Position numbers and translations under genes: made by a program. From assembly GCA_014377705.1 (NCBI GenBank), contig JACMPC010000003.1, positions 1 through 64,000 of the forward strand: a stretch of DNA of 64,000 nt. The letters run 5' to 3'. The notes below the pieces were generated by a model. The model searched no databases, had not been told where the DNA came from, and saw only the letters and a list, made by a program, of their open reading frames with translations. The DNA comes from Dermatophilaceae bacterium (GTDB lineage Bacteria; Actinomycetota; Actinomycetes; Actinomycetales; Dermatophilaceae). Positions 22,417 to 62,560 of the stretch are shown here, piece after piece; positions within the stretch are counted from its first letter, which is position 1; each line of letters opens with the position of its first letter.

Positions 22417-23391
22417 ATGCGTGCAGTAGTCGTCCAGGAGACCGGCGGTCCCGAGGTACTGATGACCGTGGAAAAGCCCTCCCCCCGCCCTGACCCGGGT
22501 GAGCTTCTCGTCGACGTGGCAGCGGCAGGGGTCAACTTCATCGACGTCTACTACCGCACAGGGGTCTACCCGCTCCAGACCCCGTTCGTCGTGGGGTCCG
22601 AGGGCGCCGGCGTCGTCAGCGCCGTCGGCAGCGGGGTCACCGGCTTCCAGGAGGGCGACCACGTCGCGTGGGCGATGGTTCCCCAGGCCGGATACGCCGA
22701 GCAGGTCATCGTGCCGGCCGTCCGCGCGGTCCCGGTGCCTGCGAGCATCGACGACGAGACCGCCGGCGCAGTGCTCCTCCAGGGCATGACCGCTCACTAC
22801 CTGACCCGGTCGACCTATCCCGCGAAGGCCGGTGACACGGCGCTGGTGCACGCGGCGGCCGGCGGGGTCGGACTTCTGCTCACCCAGGTGCTCAGCGCCC
22901 GTGGGGTACGCGTGATCGCGACAACCTCGACCGAGAGCAAGGCAGCCCTGGCCCTCGGAGCCGGCGCCACCGAGGTGATCCGGTACGACAAGGACGACGT
23001 CGCGGCGGAGGTCGCGCGGCTCACCGACACGCAAGGCGTTGACGTGGTCTACGACGGCGTGGGAGCGTCAACCTTCGACAGCAGCATCGACAGCCTGCGC
23101 CCACGCGGAATGTTCGTCCTGTACGGGGCTGCCAGCGGCAAGGTGGCTCCCGTGGATCCGCTGCTGCTGCTGGCCAAGGGCTCCCTTTTCTTCACCCGAC
23201 CGTCGCTGGCGCACTATGTCGCCGCGCAGGAGGAACTGCTCGAACGCGCCAACGACGTCTTCGGGTGGGTCGCCTCCGGCGAGATGTCGGTCCGGGTCGG
23301 CGCCCGCTACTCCCTGGACCAGGCGCAACAGGCCCACCAGGACCTGGAGAGCCGCCTCACCACCGGGAAGTCCCTGATCATCCCCCGGTGA
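22417..23391 (+). CDS. qor: NADPH:quinone oxidoreductase, zinc-free MDR type
   Basis: The 324-residue protein is a medium-chain dehydrogenase/reductase of the quinone oxidoreductase branch: GVNFIDVYYRTGVYP, VVGSEGAGVV, the AAAGGVG nucleotide-binding loop and the DVVYDGVG segment. The structural and catalytic zinc cysteines of alcohol dehydrogenases are absent, as expected. It reduces quinones or enones with NADPH. ATG 22417 follows an AGGAGG site by about 6 nt. The gene is flanked by 31-bp-period repeats on both sides and ends at a hairpin shared with the convergent gene. Confidence 0.92.
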   Translation: MRAVVVQETGGPEVLMTVEKPSPRPDPGELLVDVAAAGVNFIDVYYRTGVYPLQTPFVVGSEGAGVVSAVGSGVTGFQEGDHVAWAMVPQAGYAEQVIVPAVRAVPVPASIDDETAGAVLLQGMTAHYLTRSTYPAKAGDTALVHAAAGGVGLLLTQVLSARGVRVIATTSTESKAALALGAGATEVIRYDKDDVAAEVARLTDTQGVDVVYDGVGASTFDSSIDSLRPRGMFVLYGAASGKVAPVDPLLLLAKGSLFFTRPSLAHYVAAQEELLERANDVFGWVASGEMSVRVGARYSLDQAQQAHQDLESRLTTGKSLIIPR

Positions 23392-23506: not shown

Positions 23507-24103
23507 TCAGCTCCAGAAACGGGGGTCCCAGCGCTGGGTGCCGATACGCGTGTCGACGCCTCGGCCAGGGTGCACCACCGTCTGTGACGAAAGGGTGAAC
23601 AACCCCCTCCGGATCGAGGCCATCAGCCTCGACCGGTCGGACAGGGGAAGACCCAGACCGCCCAGACCGTGGACGCCGAGAGTCTCGCCCGTGAAGACGG
23701 CGGACAAGGCGGGCACGTGCCAGCATATGGCTCCCGGCGAGATACCCGGGGTATGGATCGACTCGAATCTGACGCCTCCGATGTTGAGCACCAGACCGTT
23801 CGGCACCGAGCTCTGCGGCCGCATCTCCGGCTCTGCCTGCCGCCAGAGGACGAGGTCATCGGTATGGAGGTACGTCACAGCCCCTGTATGGGCAGCCAAA
23901 GAGATCGCGGTCCCGACGAACTCGGGCCGCAGAGTCGTCCAGAGGATGGCGCGCAGCCGACGAGCATCGCAATGACCCAGAAGATCCCCTACCGCACCAG
24001 CCGGGTCGATCACCGCGCACTCGGAGTCGTCACCGATGAACCAGACATTGTGCTCACCATCAGAGGTCACCACGCACTCGACCGTGACCTGCGCCGGTTG
24101 CAC
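23507..24103 (-). CDS. Metallo-beta-lactamase-fold protein lacking metal ligands
   Basis: The 198-residue protein aligns along its length with glyoxalase-II-like MBL hydrolases, but every metal-binding position is changed. The THxHxDH loop reads TTLRPEFV. The usual TPGHTPGS is TPGISPGA, so its His is lost. The bridging Asp in FTGDTL is Glu in FTGETL. The last His in PGHG is Arg in PGRG. The structural glycines and the DTRIGTQR end are kept and the frame is open, so this is probably a folded non-catalytic protein, not a pseudogene. GTG 24103 has GGAG 10 nt upstream; GTG 24112 is an alternative. It diverges from galE. Confidence 0.8.
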   Translation of the reverse strand: MQPAQVTVECVVTSDGEHNVWFIGDDSECAVIDPAGAVGDLLGHCDARRLRAILWTTLRPEFVGTAISLAAHTGAVTYLHTDDLVLWRQAEPEMRPQSSVPNGLVLNIGGVRFESIHTPGISPGAICWHVPALSAVFTGETLGVHGLGGLGLPLSDRSRLMASIRRGLFTLSSQTVVHPGRGVDTRIGTQRWDPRFWS

Positions 24104-24178
24104 CCTGTTCACACTCCATGAGAGCACGTGATCGGGGCGCCGACAACAGGTGCCCCCGGTGCGGCATACGGTGTGGGT

Positions 24179-25198
24179 ATGCGCGTTCTCGTCACCGGTG
24201 GCGCCGGGTTCATCGGCTCCCACACCGTTATCCAGCTCATTGCCGCGGGCCACGATGTCCTGATCGTGGACAACTTCGCCAATTCCAAGCCGACGGTGAT
24301 CAACCGGCTTGAGGCGATCACCAGCAAGCACCTGCCGGTACACGAGTTCGACCTCCGTGACACCGAGCGGACCGAACGCCTCTTCGCGCACGAGCAGATC
24401 GACGCGGTCATCCACTTCGCAGGCCACAAGGCCGTCGGCCAGAGCAGTCAGGAGCCTCTGGATTACTACCAGAACAACCTCGGCTCGACGTTCTCGCTGG
24501 TCCGCGCGATGACCCTGCACGGCGTCGCAAAGCTCGTGTTCTCGTCATCCGCAACGGTGTACGGCGCGAACGCCGCCGTCCCGATGAACGAGGACTTCCC
24601 CACGTCGGCGACCAACCCCTACGGCTGGACCAAGGTGATGATCGAGCAGATCCTGCGCGACGTCGCGGTGGCGCAGCCGGAGATGCGAATCGCCCTGATG
24701 CGCTACTTCAACCCCGTCGGCGCCCACCCGTCCGGTGACCTCGGCGAGGACCCCTCGGGGGAACCGAACAACCTGCTCCCCTACATCTGCCAGGTCGCCG
24801 TGGGTCGCCTGGAGAAGCTTCGCATCTTCGGCGATGACTACGACACCCCGGACGGCACCCCGCTTCGCGACTACATCCACGTGGAGGACCTCGCGGCCGG
24901 GCACATCGCCGCCCTCGTCCGGCTGGACTCGACCGACCGGGCCGTCAGCACCTGGAACCTCGGCACCGGCAAGGGCACCAGTGTCTTCGAGATGCTGCAT
25001 GCCTTTGAACGCGCCGTCGGCCGGACCCTGCCCTATGAGGTCGTCGGGCGCCGCGCCGGGGACATCGCGGCCTCTTACGCCGACCCCGGTCGCGCCAACA
25101 CTGAGCTCGGCTGGAGCGCCACCCACTCGATTGACGACATGTGCACGGACTCCTGGCGTTGGCAGTCGCGGCACCCGAACGGCTATCCGGACGCGTGA
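24179..25198 (+). CDS. galE: UDP-glucose 4-epimerase
   Basis: The 339-residue extended SDR has the NAD motif GGAGFIGS, the serine SSSATVYG, the catalytic YGWTK and the FNPVGAHPSG, GEDP and NNLLPYI segments typical of GalE. It interconverts UDP-glucose and UDP-galactose. ATG 24179 lies exactly 6 nt after TACGGT (24167-24172), so the mRNA is probably leaderless; a frame extension to 24128 would add a low-complexity tail. Its 3' end overlaps the convergent DUF1023 gene by 16 bp. Confidence 0.95.
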   Translation: MRVLVTGGAGFIGSHTVIQLIAAGHDVLIVDNFANSKPTVINRLEAITSKHLPVHEFDLRDTERTERLFAHEQIDAVIHFAGHKAVGQSSQEPLDYYQNNLGSTFSLVRAMTLHGVAKLVFSSSATVYGANAAVPMNEDFPTSATNPYGWTKVMIEQILRDVAVAQPEMRIALMRYFNPVGAHPSGDLGEDPSGEPNNLLPYICQVAVGRLEKLRIFGDDYDTPDGTPLRDYIHVEDLAAGHIAALVRLDSTDRAVSTWNLGTGKGTSVFEMLHAFERAVGRTLPYEVVGRRAGDIAASYADPGRANTELGWSATHSIDDMCTDSWRWQSRHPNGYPDA

Positions 25199-44870: not shown

Positions 44871-45005
44871 ATGAGCCATGTCGTTGCCCCCGCCGCGCCG
44901 ATCCTGATCCCGCCGATCGGGCTGTCAGCTCGCGAGCGTGACAATCCTGCAGGTGGGCGACGTGTCCATCCGGTGCTGAACCGCGCCGTAGCCTTGAACT
45001 CGTGA
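44871..45005 (+). CDS. Putative 44-residue ORF coupled to the downstream membrane protein
   Basis: ATG 44871 opens a frame (MSHVVAPAAPILIPPIGLS...) that ends in TGA overlapping the GTG start of the next gene (GTGA at 45002-45005). A TAGGCT at 44856-44861 could be its promoter. It has no ribosome site and no recognised domain, and codon bias cannot settle it in so few codons. The alternative is that the downstream gene has its own leaderless promoter, TAGCCT at 44989-44994. Confidence 0.35.
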   Translation: MSHVVAPAAPILIPPIGLSARERDNPAGGRRVHPVLNRAVALNS

Positions 45006-47218
45006 CCCGACGCCAGCTGCTCGCCGCCGCCCTGGCCGCCGGGGTGCTGGCTGCCGTGGTGATCGGCTCCCTGTCCATGGCGTCATCAAAGGGCGCGTCG
45101 AGCACAGCCACGGACAAGCAGGCCACCTGGCCCATCGTGGTCATCGGCGCCGGGGGGCTGTCCTGGAGTGACATCTCGCCGCGCACGACACCCACCCTGT
45201 GGTCGTTGCTGCGCAACGGCGCGACCGCCGCATTGACGGTCCACTCGGTGCACGCCAACACCTGTCCGGTGGACGGCTGGCTGACCCTCTCCGCCGGGGA
45301 GCAAGCCGGGGACGCTTCCGGTTCAGCCGCTGAAGGCGGGCTGGGCCAGGATGCAAACAGGCCCCCGTGCAGGGCATTCCCGCCCCTGGAGACGGCGGGC
45401 AAGGTCCCTCGATGGAGCGAGTACCGGGCGGCGGCAGGTGCCACCAGGTTCGATGCCTCGCTCGGTCTGCTCGGCGATCAGATCGCCAGCCGTGGCCTCT
45501 GCCTTCAGGCTATCGGTCCCGGTGCTGCCCTGGGCGCCGCCCGATCCAGCGGGATGGTGGTCCGCTACCAGCAGTACGACGACTCGACTCTGCCCACGGC
45601 CCTGTCCAGCTGCCCCGCGACCCTGGTCGACGTCGGTGCTGTCCGCGATCCGGCCGACGCGAACCCCCAGGACGAGGCACGTCCCAACGCCACCCGAGCC
45701 CGGCAGGTCGGGGCGGTCGACGCCCGCGTCACCGCGGTGCTCAAGGCCGCGCCCGCCGGCACCGACGTCGCGTTGCTCAGCCTCGCGGATGCCGGAGTCA
45801 CCGAACGCCTGCGAATGATCGCGGTCACCGGGCCTCACTTCGGAGCAGGGACCCTGGAGTCGAGCTCGACCCGGCAGCCAGGGCTGGTGCAGCTCACCGA
45901 CCTGACCCCGACCATCCTGGCGCATCTGGGCATCTCGCGGCCGCCGGCCCTGGGTGGCACCCCGCTGCGGTTCACACCCGCCCGCGACAGCTCCGACCGG
46001 TCAGCCGACGAGCGTCTGCAGGCCCTGCTCGACCTTGACCAGGCCTCGCACGAGGTCCACGGCCTGGTCGAGCCATTCTTCTACGGATTCGTCCTGCTCC
46101 AGCTGGCGTTCTTCCTGGCCGTGGGCCTGCTCTGGAGGCGTGGCTGGGGCCTTCCCGCCCAGCGCTGCCGGCTGTTGCGGATCACCCGCCGGATGGCCGT
46201 CATCGCGGCGGCCGTCCCGGTGTCGACGTTTCTGGCCAACCTCCTGCCGTGGTGGCGCTTCTCTGCCCCCCTGGTGAGCATCGTGGCCTCCGTAACGCTC
46301 TTCACCACGGCAATTTCGGCGCTGGCTCTCCTGGGGCCCTGGAGCCGGCGGCTGTTCGGGCCGCTGGGCATGATCTGCGCCACGACCATGACCGTCCTGG
46401 CCCTCGACGTGATGTCCGGGTCGCGACTTCAGCTCTCCTCCCTGATGGGCCTGCAACCGGTCATCGGCGGCAGGTTCTACGGGATGGGCAACGTGACCTT
46501 CGCGTTGTTCGGCACGGCAACGCTGATGCTCTGCACCGCCGTGGGCAATCACCTGGTGACCGTCGGGCAACCCCGCCACGCGGCCGTGGCGGTGGGTGCG
46601 ATCGGGCTGGGTGCCGTCATCATCGACGCCTCGCCATCGTGGGGCAGCGACCTGGGCGGCCCCACGGGGCTGCTGCCGGCCGTGATCTTCCTGGTCCTGG
46701 CGATTCTGCAGATCGCGCTGACCTGGCGCCGGCTGCTGGCCATCGGGGCCGCGATCGGCGGGTTCCTCTTCGTTCTGGGGCTGCTGGACTGGCTGCGTCC
46801 GGCTGAGTCCCGCTCACATCTGGGCAAGTTCGTCCAGACCACCCTGGCCGGTGGCGCCTGGGACATCGTCGTGCGCAAGCTCGAGCAGAACATCACCCTG
46901 TTCTTCAACAACCCCCTCTCGCTGCTCATCCCGGTCGCGCTCGTGCTGTTCGCCTACATCCTGACCCGGCCCGATTCGGCAGCCGCTGCGCCGATGCGCC
47001 GGTCCTTCACGTCCATCCCCCTGCTGCGACCGGGGCTGATCGCCGTCCTGGTCATGTGGGTGATCGGCTTCGCCCTCAACGACTCCGGGGCCGCGATCCC
47101 CGCGGTGGGGGCAACCCTGGCCCTTCCCCTGGTGATCGCGACCGCGGTCAGGACGCTGGCGGAGGCGAGGGTGGCTGCGAGACCCGCGACCACCCGCGCC
47201 TCGCGACTGCGGCGATAG
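45002..47218 (+). CDS. Conserved actinobacterial membrane protein with phosphatase-like ectodomain
   Basis: The 738-residue protein has an N-terminal signal anchor (LLAAALAAGVLAAVVIGSL). An exported domain of about 300 residues follows, beginning IVVIGAGGLSWSDISPRTTPTLWSLLRNGA, which recalls the metal-site start of alkaline-phosphatase/sulfatase-like proteins. The second half has about ten membrane helices with a conserved LQLSSLMGLQPVIGGRFYGMGN. No characterised homologue is recognised. It ends in a 71-bp antisense overlap with a membrane mannosyltransferase-like gene, and a second glycosyltransferase is nearby, so a role in envelope glycan or lipid handling is possible. This role is inference. 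Confidence 0.85.
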   Translation: MTRRQLLAAALAAGVLAAVVIGSLSMASSKGASSTATDKQATWPIVVIGAGGLSWSDISPRTTPTLWSLLRNGATAALTVHSVHANTCPVDGWLTLSAGEQAGDASGSAAEGGLGQDANRPPCRAFPPLETAGKVPRWSEYRAAAGATRFDASLGLLGDQIASRGLCLQAIGPGAALGAARSSGMVVRYQQYDDSTLPTALSSCPATLVDVGAVRDPADANPQDEARPNATRARQVGAVDARVTAVLKAAPAGTDVALLSLADAGVTERLRMIAVTGPHFGAGTLESSSTRQPGLVQLTDLTPTILAHLGISRPPALGGTPLRFTPARDSSDRSADERLQALLDLDQASHEVHGLVEPFFYGFVLLQLAFFLAVGLLWRRGWGLPAQRCRLLRITRRMAVIAAAVPVSTFLANLLPWWRFSAPLVSIVASVTLFTTAISALALLGPWSRRLFGPLGMICATTMTVLALDVMSGSRLQLSSLMGLQPVIGGRFYGMGNVTFALFGTATLMLCTAVGNHLVTVGQPRHAAVAVGAIGLGAVIIDASPSWGSDLGGPTGLLPAVIFLVLAILQIALTWRRLLAIGAAIGGFLFVLGLLDWLRPAESRSHLGKFVQTTLAGGAWDIVVRKLEQNITLFFNNPLSLLIPVALVLFAYILTRPDSAAAAPMRRSFTSIPLLRPGLIAVLVMWVIGFALNDSGAAIPAVGATLALPLVIATAVRTLAEARVAARPATTRASRLRR

Positions 47219-58949: not shown

Positions 58950-61900
58950 TCAGCCGAGGTAGGTCATCCCGTTCCACCCGCTACCGATCGCACGCCGGGT
59001 GGCCAGGCCTCCGGCATTGTTGCCCGGGTAGAGCCACAGGGCTCCCGCCGCATCCCGCGCGATCAGGTCGTTCCCGCCGGCGCGGTCCCAGTTGCCGGGC
59101 GTGACCAGGGCAGTCATCCCGGTCCACCCTGCTGACACCGCGGTTCTGGCGGCGACACCACCGATGAGGCCACCGGTGCCGTTACCCCGGTACAGCATCA
59201 GTATTCCGCCCCCGTCGCGACCCAGGATGTCGGCCCGCCCGTCCCCGGAGAAGTCGCCCGGTCCCCTGATGGCAGTAGCCGACCCCCAGCCGGAGCTGTT
59301 CAGGCGCCGTGTCTGGAAGACTGCGTTACCTGCCAGCGGGTAGACCCACAGGTTGCCGCTCGAGTCACGGGCGAGCACGTCGCCTCGGCCATCCCCGGTC
59401 ATGTCGCCGGCATTGGTGACCGTGAGGCTCTGCCACCCAGCGCCGATCTGGCGCCTGGCGCCCAGGCCACCGGCGCCGTTGCCCGGGTAGAGCCAGAGAG
59501 CACCAGCGGCGTCCCGCGCCAGGACGTCCGCGATGCCGTCGCCGTTCACGTCGCCGGGCGTGATGAGCGCGGTCATGATGTTCCACCCACCACCCATCTG
59601 GTACCGGGCCTTGAAGCTGCCGGCACCGTCGCCGGGGTAGAGCCACAGGAGGCCCGCGCCGTCACGGGCGATCAGGTCGGCGAACCCGTCCCTGTTGAAG
59701 TCGCTCAACCGGGTCACCGGAACAGTCACCACGGGCGCGACAGGCGTCACGCTGTTGGACATCACCGAGTAGGGACCCGGCCCCACCGCGTTCGTGGCCA
59801 GCACCTGGAACGTGTACGCCGTCCCGTTGGTCAGGCCTGCGACTGTCAAACTGACCGCGCCTGCGGCCGCGGCCCGCAGGGTCCCCACCTGAACGCTCGT
59901 GGCGAGGTTGACCACCCGCACGGAGTACCCGGTGATCGGCGGGCCCCCGTTGCTGGCCGGCACCGTCCACGACACCGCTGCCTGGGAGTTCCCGGGAGTC
60001 CCCGTGACGGCCGTCGGCGCGCCCGGCGCGACGGCCAGGTAGGGGGTGGTGGTCAGCGAAAGGTCATCGAGAACGAACGAGGTTGCCGCAGACGCGTCCT
60101 CTGCTCCGGAGAAGGAGAGGGAGATCGTCTGGCCCGCGTAGGCCGACAGGTTCACCGTCTTGGGCACGTAGCCGTCGGCCGCGTCGACGTTCGACAACGT
60201 CTGCAACGCTGTCGAGCCCACCCGGACCGTCATCGTGTCGTACACCGTGCTGCCTGCTGCCTCAAAGGTGTCTACGTGCACGTCGTAGGAGAGGGTGGCG
60301 CTGCTGCTCGCGGGGATGGTCACGAGCTGCGAGATCGAGTCGTCGTGGGCCGATCCCACGCCGCCCAGCCAGGTGGACCAGGTGCCTGTGTGGGCGGGCT
60401 GGCCCGAACCGCCCCACTGGGCGATGACATCGGCGGTCGAGGACCAGAGGGTGTCTCCGGACTCGAAGCCGGGGTTGCTCAGCAGGTTGCTGCCCGGCGG
60501 GGGCGGTGAGGCAACCGCACAGGTCTGTGCACCGGCCGGAACGGCGATCGCCGAGAACGCGGCCGCAACGCCCAGGCACTGCGCAGAGCCGGCGCCGTAC
60601 AGGTCCTTGGCGGACTGGATGGCTCCCTCGCGAGCCGCGTCATAGGAGTTGCTCGAGGTGAGGTACGTCGTCAGCGTGCGGTACCAGATCCGGGCAGCCA
60701 CGTCGCGGCCGATCGGCGTCACCGTCGAGGCGTTGCAGGTCGGGCTGTTGTAGGAGACACCGTTGACGGTCTTGGCCCCGGAGCCCTCGGAGGCCAGGTA
60801 GAACCAGTGGTCCAGGGGACCGGCGGAGTAGTGCACGTCCAGGGTGCCCAGGGTCGGCGACCAGCAGTCCGGCGAGACGCCGTCGCGGGAGGGGCGGTCC
60901 ATGTAGCGCAGCGGGCTCCCGTCACCGTTGATGTTGATCAGCTCACCGATGAAGTAGTCCGGGTTGTCAGCGGCGTTTGCCGCATACCACTCGACGGACG
61001 TGCCGAAGATGTCCGAGGTGGCCTCGTTCAGGCCACCGGCCTCGCCAGTCCCGACCAGGCCCGCGGTGTTCTCAGTGACGCCATGGGTCATCTCGTGACC
61101 GGCCACGTCGAGCTCGACGAGGGGGTGGGTGTTTCCCGCTCCGTCTCCGTAGGTCATCTGGGTACCGTCCCAGAAGGCGTTGACGTAGTTAGTGCCGTAG
61201 TGGACCCGTGAACGCGCCCCGGCCCCGGTGTTCCAGATGCCGTTGCGGCCCTGGATGTTCTTGAAGTAGTCGAACGTCTTCTCGGCACCGTACTGGGCGT
61301 CGACCCCGGCCGAGGCCCGGTCGGTCACTGCGCCATTGCCCCAGCTGTCATCGGCGTCGTTGAAGGTCGTCCCGGCTGCGGTGGAGGTCGCCCCGTTCAG
61401 GTCTGTCACATAGTTGCCCGCCGCGTCGCGCATCGTCCAGGGGGGGCCGGCTGTGGTGCCGATAGTCACCCGGCCCGAGTAGATGCCGTTGCCCGTGCCT
61501 CTCTCGATCTCATCCCAGGACGAGAGCGTGACACCGGTGCTGGCATCGACAATGGTGTGGACGCGGCTGGGCGTCTGATCAGCCCGGACACCAGTGGTAA
61601 GCACGTCGTAGGCCAGCTGTGGCTTGGCTTTGCTTGAGGCGCCTCCCGAGTAGACGACCAGTTCGCCCTTGGTCGCGGCGGTGGTCTTCTGCACCAGTGA
61701 AGCCTTCCGGCTGCCGGCAGCCTGGGCCGACGAGAGGCTGAGCTTGGGCTTCGTCGAGGCCACCACGACCTCGGGTGAGCCGTTCCAGTTGACTCCTTTG
61801 ATCTTGCCGGACCTGGCCCGGTGGCTCACGAAGTCGCCACCGATGACGCGCAGGCCGGCATACGTCCGGTTGTAGCGCACATGGGTCGTGCCGTCAGGAT

Positions 61901-62132
61901 CGGTGATGACGTCCTTAACCACGAGCTTCTCGCCACTGTCCAGGCCCAGAGCGTGCTTGGTGGAGTCCGCGCGGGACTGCTCGACCGCCATCTTCTGAGC
62001 CTTACTGGGCGCTGGGGACGGAGAGGACGGTACTGGCGTTGGAGCGCCGGAAGCCGATACCCCCTGCGCAGTCGCCGTGACCATGGCCAGAAGAACGACG
62101 AGCGTCACGCGCGCTCTGAGATGAACCAGCAT
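58950..62132 (-). CDS. Secreted M4 (thermolysin-family) metallopeptidase with FG-GAP repeats
   Basis: The 1060-residue protein has a signal peptide (VTLVVLLAMVTATAQGVSASG), a propeptide (FTP/PepSY-like), and the M4 domain with HEMTH (His346, Glu347, His350) and third ligand Glu370 in GGLNEATSD. The M4 C-terminal domain follows, then a beta-sandwich (LLSNPGFESGD), an Fn3-like domain (AAVSWTVPASNGGPPITGYSVRV) and about five FG-GAP/VCBS repeats such as DVNGDGIADVLARDAAGALWLYPGN. It degrades extracellular protein. ATG 62132 has GGAG 5 nt upstream. The repeat end may bind calcium or surfaces. Confidence 0.94.
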   Translation of the reverse strand: MLVHLRARVTLVVLLAMVTATAQGVSASGAPTPVPSSPSPAPSKAQKMAVEQSRADSTKHALGLDSGEKLVVKDVITDPDGTTHVRYNRTYAGLRVIGGDFVSHRARSGKIKGVNWNGSPEVVVASTKPKLSLSSAQAAGSRKASLVQKTTAATKGELVVYSGGASSKAKPQLAYDVLTTGVRADQTPSRVHTIVDASTGVTLSSWDEIERGTGNGIYSGRVTIGTTAGPPWTMRDAAGNYVTDLNGATSTAAGTTFNDADDSWGNGAVTDRASAGVDAQYGAEKTFDYFKNIQGRNGIWNTGAGARSRVHYGTNYVNAFWDGTQMTYGDGAGNTHPLVELDVAGHEMTHGVTENTAGLVGTGEAGGLNEATSDIFGTSVEWYAANAADNPDYFIGELININGDGSPLRYMDRPSRDGVSPDCWSPTLGTLDVHYSAGPLDHWFYLASEGSGAKTVNGVSYNSPTCNASTVTPIGRDVAARIWYRTLTTYLTSSNSYDAAREGAIQSAKDLYGAGSAQCLGVAAAFSAIAVPAGAQTCAVASPPPPGSNLLSNPGFESGDTLWSSTADVIAQWGGSGQPAHTGTWSTWLGGVGSAHDDSISQLVTIPASSSATLSYDVHVDTFEAAGSTVYDTMTVRVGSTALQTLSNVDAADGYVPKTVNLSAYAGQTISLSFSGAEDASAATSFVLDDLSLTTTPYLAVAPGAPTAVTGTPGNSQAAVSWTVPASNGGPPITGYSVRVVNLATSVQVGTLRAAAAGAVSLTVAGLTNGTAYTFQVLATNAVGPGPYSVMSNSVTPVAPVVTVPVTRLSDFNRDGFADLIARDGAGLLWLYPGDGAGSFKARYQMGGGWNIMTALITPGDVNGDGIADVLARDAAGALWLYPGNGAGGLGARRQIGAGWQSLTVTNAGDMTGDGRGDVLARDSSGNLWVYPLAGNAVFQTRRLNSSGWGSATAIRGPGDFSGDGRADILGRDGGGILMLYRGNGTGGLIGGVAARTAVSAGWTGMTALVTPGNWDRAGGNDLIARDAAGALWLYPGNNAGGLATRRAIGSGWNGMTYLG

Positions 62133-62560
62133 GACAACTCCAAGCCTGCCCCAGGCGGCATGGGTGCCACCCTCCAGACTCCGATGCTTCCACCCCTCTG
62201 GCCAGCCCGTCGGCAACTTCCAGCCCAACCGCCCCTATGGCTGGGCAACCTGTCCGTATTCCCGATCGACCTGGCCGAAAGCACGATTCACACATCTCAA
62301 CGGCTGTCTCTGCTGTTGGATGTGAGTCCACCCACCACGTCGCCACGACGCGTTACTTCACCTCGGTTCGGTGGCTCCGCTGCCGGGGGTCCTCGTTCTT
62401 ACGTCTTGTACAGATTGTTTTCCTAACCTCTAATATTTGTGACTGAGGTCACCTCTGAGCACCTGTGAAGTGGGCCAGAGAACGTGTGTGCAGTTGCTGG
62501 ACGTTGCGCCCGATATCCACCAAAGACCACCAGACCATCGGCCACACTCAAACACGGCGA
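62133..62560. other. Long upstream region of the metallopeptidase gene
   Basis: About 430 bp lie between the peptidase ATG and the tRNA terminator. The part at 62405-62445 is AT-rich and is the likely promoter for the peptidase, which would give a leader of about 270 nt. A hairpin CACC-GAACCGA-GGTG lies near 62360. I recognise no riboswitch and no gene here. Confidence 0.4.

Follow-up and report, generated by a model that had tools for sequence, protein, structure and literature searches.

CPSF100 is without metal ligands, and the MBL pseudoenzymes known to us (INTS9 and CPSF100) all belong to eukaryotic RNA processing. INTS9 is an MBL/beta-CASP pseudoenzyme in which the inactive nuclease subunit mediates interactions for the active one, as described in the accessible part of PMC7980224. 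The protein reported here, encoded in a 64,000-nucleotide stretch of DNA from a Dermatophilaceae bacterium (the whole stretch analysed, termed the window), resembles INTS9 as presented there: in both, an MBL-type fold has no means of binding the catalytic ions, yet the protein is conserved. INTS9 and CPSF100 are large eukaryotic RNA-processing subunits with a beta-CASP domain, whereas the window protein is a small, single-domain bacterial protein nearest to another MBL branch. The literature searched, most subscription papers aside and including the accessible parts of PMC7980224, PMC3219644, PMC12914118, and PMC10662689, contained no bacterial MBL pseudoenzyme of such kind.

Among enzymes, the profile likeness to glyoxalase II (GloB) was weak, as the window protein scored 31 bits with the equivalog model TIGR03413, far below its cutoff of 200.8, and is without the ligands. 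The nearest intact relatives among those searched were dehydrogenase-linked MBL proteins of the type of L002, a paralogue with 43% identity to the window protein that lies on a different contig of the same genome. In the window genome, where this linkage was looked at, L002 is located directly behind a gene that matches S-(hydroxymethyl)mycothiol dehydrogenase (TIGR03451) with 671.5 bits, the cutoff being 512.9. Comparison with the L002-type family by hhalign gave a probability of 100 over 179 columns, with different branching points in the quick and careful trees. The L002-type enzyme is probably a thioester hydrolase, and S-formylmycothiol may be its substrate. S-formylmycothiol is hydrolyzed to formate according to a passage that names no enzyme, in the accessible text of PMC12914118; the literature searched, most subscription papers aside, held no paper naming an MBL enzyme for this hydrolysis and none on Rv2260 with mycothiol.

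Reading frame and metal-ligand positions

The frame at 23507..24103 on the minus strand comprises 198 codons and is open throughout, in agreement with the earlier note. Its extent stood as regards the frame, while the start codon at 24103 is probably to be replaced by an in-frame GTG at 24112-24110, 9 bases upstream (added segment 24104..24112, minus strand), which the upstream strings show to be common to four orthologues and which is the likelier start because G002 has GCG where the 24103 codon falls. Residues 16-152 matched Pfam PF00753 (Lactamase_B) at 38.1 bits, above the curated cutoff of 22.7. A five-row profile, consisting of the window protein and its four closest relatives, had matches at E 0.001 or better to 28 distinct solved-structure sequences, led by the MBL proteins 7ev5 (E 3.2e-21 over profile positions 17-189 of 197) and 2zwr. 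Judged from these matches, the window protein is a member of the MBL family along nearly its whole length. The intact fold claimed beforehand was backed by the profile matches to solved MBL structures and not by an AlphaFold2 model, which was made from three sequences only and had a mean pLDDT of 38.1.

In the homologue alignment, the window protein retained none of the seven MBL metal ligands, with T57, R59, E61, F62, I121, E140, and R181 at the positions of the canonical H, H, D, H, H, D, and H (TREFIER vs. HHDHHDH). Four ligands are gone from the THxHxDH site, which now reads T-T-L-R-P-E-F-V (residues 56-63; 23915..23938, minus strand), and the histidine of TPGH is now Ile121 (23741..23743, minus strand), with Ile likewise in each of the other three orthologues. 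The bridging Asp of GDTLF is now Glu140 (23684..23686, minus strand; Glu, Glu, and Lys in the other three) and the last His is now Arg181 (23561..23563, minus strand; Arg, Arg, and His in the other three). The earlier note had claimed that every ligand was replaced, and each residue it named (TTLRPEFV, Ile, Glu, and Arg) proved right. The alignment contained 97 rows, 13 from the galE-linked clade and 84 from outside it, that are the best-scoring loci among the matches listed, including repeats of one locus, and not a random sample. Among these best-scoring loci, HHDHHDH was found in all 83 out-of-clade rows covering the seven positions, such that the replacement in the window protein is, on this alignment, far from chance. 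The remaining out-of-clade row, an intact-type MBL homologue (L016, G029:C1), is ended by an in-frame TGA after the TPGH motif and was canonical at all five positions covered; this gene may be broken at the TGA or a base may have been misread.

All three other genus genomes examined carried an orthologue with an open frame, 71-79% identity, and a divergent orientation from galE. Their ligand sets were NRESIER (G003), NWESIER (G001), and NWESIKH (G002), the last with one ligand His left at the final position. Alignment with close homologues, proposed as a check on the pseudoenzyme claim, thus gave genus-wide ligand loss with zero or one ligand remaining in 4/4 genomes, the near-complete or complete loss being a feature of four species only that are all represented by draft assemblies, including two with a completeness of 68% and 79%. 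A partial second copy of the gene in G001, interrupted by runs of N, had R and Q at the last two ligand positions. It lies beside a second galE of that genome (L038, G001:C212) that is closer to G002 (89%) than to the other G001 copy (84%), and this second locus perhaps reflects a strain mixture. The viral contigs scanned yielded no relative, and a plasmid protein search gave at least 34 records that were all below 60% identity, the best among the matches listed being 43.7%.

Changes outside the metal site and the copy in another genus

The loss of ligands was accompanied by changes elsewhere in the protein. A set of 77 distinct intact rows has 63 positions with at least 93% conservation; 31 of these were retained throughout the four orthologues, a likeness shared with the dehydrogenase-linked L002 type, and 32 were not. 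Most of the FxGGPGATGRS stretch, invariant in the 77 intact rows, was among the changed positions, as was a portion of the N-terminal GTFSLDGG segment that the window protein is missing. None of the eight GGPGATGRS-loop positions invariant in 77/77 intact rows was kept in all four orthologues. The window protein further differs from the L002 type by an added RWDxxFW motif and by linkage to galE and not to the dehydrogenase. This motif is part of a C-terminal DTRIGxxRWDxxFW common to all five galE-linked copies, with its residues R186, W192, and F196 present in less than 5% of the 77 intact rows. The loop is not strictly required, as a second copy with intact ligands in G173 that lies outside the 77 rows (L100) reads GGPGATRH. 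Such second MBL copies with intact ligands were observed in genus g32 at L100 (G173:C1:3506200-3508200) and L102 (G179:C6:65300-67100), with the N-terminal segment changed in both and the GGPGATGRS loop also altered in L100, and possibly represent a separate duplication.

The fifth galE-linked copy was found in another genus, represented by one genome (G196, a draft of 760 contigs). The family search covered 186 genomes, at least 175 of which had matches at E 1e-18, and five genomes (the four of the genus plus G196) scored 181 bits or more while the next genome scored 141.5. The G196 copy (L041) had 181 bits and 49% identity to the window protein; a profile built from just the genus's four rows gave it 203.8 bits against 166.5 for the best other fetched row, and the five-row profile gave it 330.3 bits against 199.6 for the best other row. 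Widening the search to samples of the order (396 genomes) and the class (394 genomes), which overlap and had at most eight candidates scored per genome, gave only the window gene above 200.2 bits among the matches listed, and hence no further G196-like copy in those samples. The five galE-linked copies formed one group with support of 100/99 in the careful tree, which is unrooted, has bootstrap support that had not fully converged, and contains 64 rows (the 80 of the quick tree minus L003 and 15 near-alike or more distant rows). In it, the stem branch of the four genus members measures 1.32 changes per site. In the quick tree, the galE-linked group joins six same-family rows at 97, a branching point that differs in the careful tree.

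The G196 copy shares with the window gene the orientation divergent from galE, the DTRIGxxRWDxxFW tail, and a changed loop (G and P retained; A, T, G, R, and S lost). It differs in its ligands, HHAHHDH, of which six are kept and only the Asp of HxHxDH is replaced, by Ala, such that a one-metal site is possible. In addition, the next same-strand gene is an arginyl-tRNA-synthetase-like frame (named by eye) and not qor. Since only one ligand is lost in G196, ligand loss looks stepwise, with most of it apparently on the long stem branch of the genus; on the simplest reading of these sequences, changes in other parts of the protein preceded the loss of most of the metal site.

Selection and rival explanations

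The dN/dS values of the gene in six pairs were 0.11-0.20 by NG86 and 0.11-0.22 by LWL85, with YN00 values for two of the six pairs (0.07 and 0.12), all of these being approximate in view of the high dS of 0.8-1.4 (1.6-2.4 times that of galE). Comparable NG86 values were obtained for galE (0.13-0.21, 10 pairs), qor (0.15-0.21, three pairs), and the intact MBL paralogue (0.10-0.18, three pairs); an alpha/beta hydrolase beyond galE gave 0.14-0.30 and a holin-like protein 0.35-0.65 (six pairs each). Differences in one orthologue pair fell mostly at the third codon position (0.15, 0.12, and 0.53 by position). The nearness of the values to those of galE, qor, and the intact paralogue indicates that this is not a decaying pseudogene. 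The earlier note would have taken intact ligands in relatives together with relaxed selection as signs of an early pseudogene; the former was found in part, in the G196 copy from another genus, and the latter was not seen. The dN of the gene was higher than that of the intact paralogue in 3/3 pairs, by 1.3-1.4 times in two and by 11 times in the third (G001-G003), where the paralogues are anomalously alike. These paralogues, L039 (G001:C103) and L040 (G003:C403), are 97% identical with a dS of 0.15 although the galE dS is 0.50, consistent with either transfer or mixing of assemblies. The gene is under purifying selection and is not decaying; the constraint may be a little weaker than that acting on the paralogue. 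In all four genomes it had a low GC3 (0.76-0.78) and a low codon adaptation, the latter against a rough reference set containing qor, galE, and a frame unmatched in Pfam; both would fit weak expression. Frame error and assembly error were rejected, given the open frames in four assemblies and substitutions that track the minus-strand codon frame.

The best reading of these sequences is a genus-wide, selectively maintained MBL pseudoenzyme, as both the loss of catalytic residues within an enzyme family and conservation under selection are present, and the pseudoenzyme assignment of the earlier note is thereby supported by the ligand loss in 4/4 genus genomes. A pseudogene in early decay might be read from the GC3 in the window genome (0.78 vs. 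0.87 for qor and 0.90 for galE), the low codon adaptation, and the raised dN; it is contradicted by the genus genomes, in which frames stayed open at that dS with low dN/dS and 118/188 columns are invariant, and we regard it as highly improbable. Equally hard to credit, since the window protein has none of the ligands, is the idea that some members remain hydrolases by way of a relict site, for which the last-position His of G002 and the six ligands of G196 may be cited. A dinuclear metal centre cannot be held by one His.

Two further explanations appear unlikely and deserve more weight. The protein could still be catalytic, using a new site that is either metal-free or metallated in a different way, for example at H44, C45, E61, H117, or H178, all of which are invariant in the four orthologues, with H44, C45, and E61 new relative to the 77 intact rows. 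However, the orthologues disagree with one another at five of the seven former ligand positions, and most of the loop common to all the intact rows has changed. Only E61 and I121 are invariant, 2/7 against the proportion of columns overall (P 0.07, weak), which speaks against a replacement active site at those positions. Alternatively, the protein may pair with a catalytically active MBL enzyme as its partner subunit, in the way that INTS9 serves INTS11; the intact paralogue of the window genome would be a candidate for the active member. The precedent of an inactive subunit mediating interactions for an active nuclease (accessible part of PMC7980224) and the presence of L002 favor such a partnership, while the location of the two genes on different contigs argues against it; we consider it improbable to a similar degree.

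A metal-free MBL-fold pseudoenzyme that is kept by selection and acts by binding without hydrolysis is accordingly the explanation we consider likely. Its ancestor would have been a copy of an MBL gene of the kind adjoining S-(hydroxymethyl)mycothiol dehydrogenase in the window genome, which would have been set divergently upstream of galE before the split of genus g1 and the G196 lineage, a placement that we infer from the shared position and the tree. The GGPGATGRS loop would then have been largely lost, the C-terminal DTRIGxxRWDxxFW gained, and one ligand lost, as is the state in G196, followed by loss of the remaining ligands on the genus stem. The gene now persists under purifying selection, and most likely the remodeled pocket face would serve for binding, either of a small molecule or of a protein partner, with no hydrolysis involved. 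A binding or regulatory role, as well as its ligand and any effect on galE, is what we infer for this protein. More speculatively, and with rather little confidence, the galE-linked lineage may be midway in turning a two-metal hydrolase into a binding protein without metals, which would serve UDP-galactose or thiol metabolism as a sensor or partner, with a one-ligand-lost intermediate alive in another genus. A small bacterial case, an extant intermediate, and an intact paralogue in the window genome could together provide a tractable series for metal-site loss in a useful fold, and they caution that a profile match alone is insufficient to annotate such genes as metallo-hydrolases.

Genomic neighbours

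The divergent neighbour is a galE-like NAD-dependent epimerase (24179..25198, plus strand, with ATG 24179 as the chosen start), recognized by Pfam PF01370 and synteny and named from the Pfam family together with the label of the earlier note. The two genes share a short divergent intergenic region (24113..24178) with conserved blocks in the four-genome alignment. The convergent neighbour is a qor-like protein of the zinc-binding-dehydrogenase family (22417..23391, plus strand; Pfam and synteny). Both arrangements were as first described in the window, but only the former is conserved: the galE-divergent order was present in 5/5 genomes carrying the gene, while qor adjoins it in the window genome and G003 only, lies about 9 kb off in G001, and was absent from the stretches read around the gene in G002 (a 7.2 kb contig) and G196. 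From gene order, the link to galE is a positional one.

Rfam at the gathering threshold gave nothing but one tRNA in the window. Other observations in the window included a 738-codon frame with GC3 0.88 and without a Pfam match at E 1e-5 (45002-47218, part of the codon-adaptation reference set), a frame (g19031) that is probably not a gene as the opposite strand carries Pfam E1_dh and transketolase genes, and a 1092-residue thermolysin-family (M4) metallopeptidase with fibronectin III and FG-GAP repeats (58950-62228).
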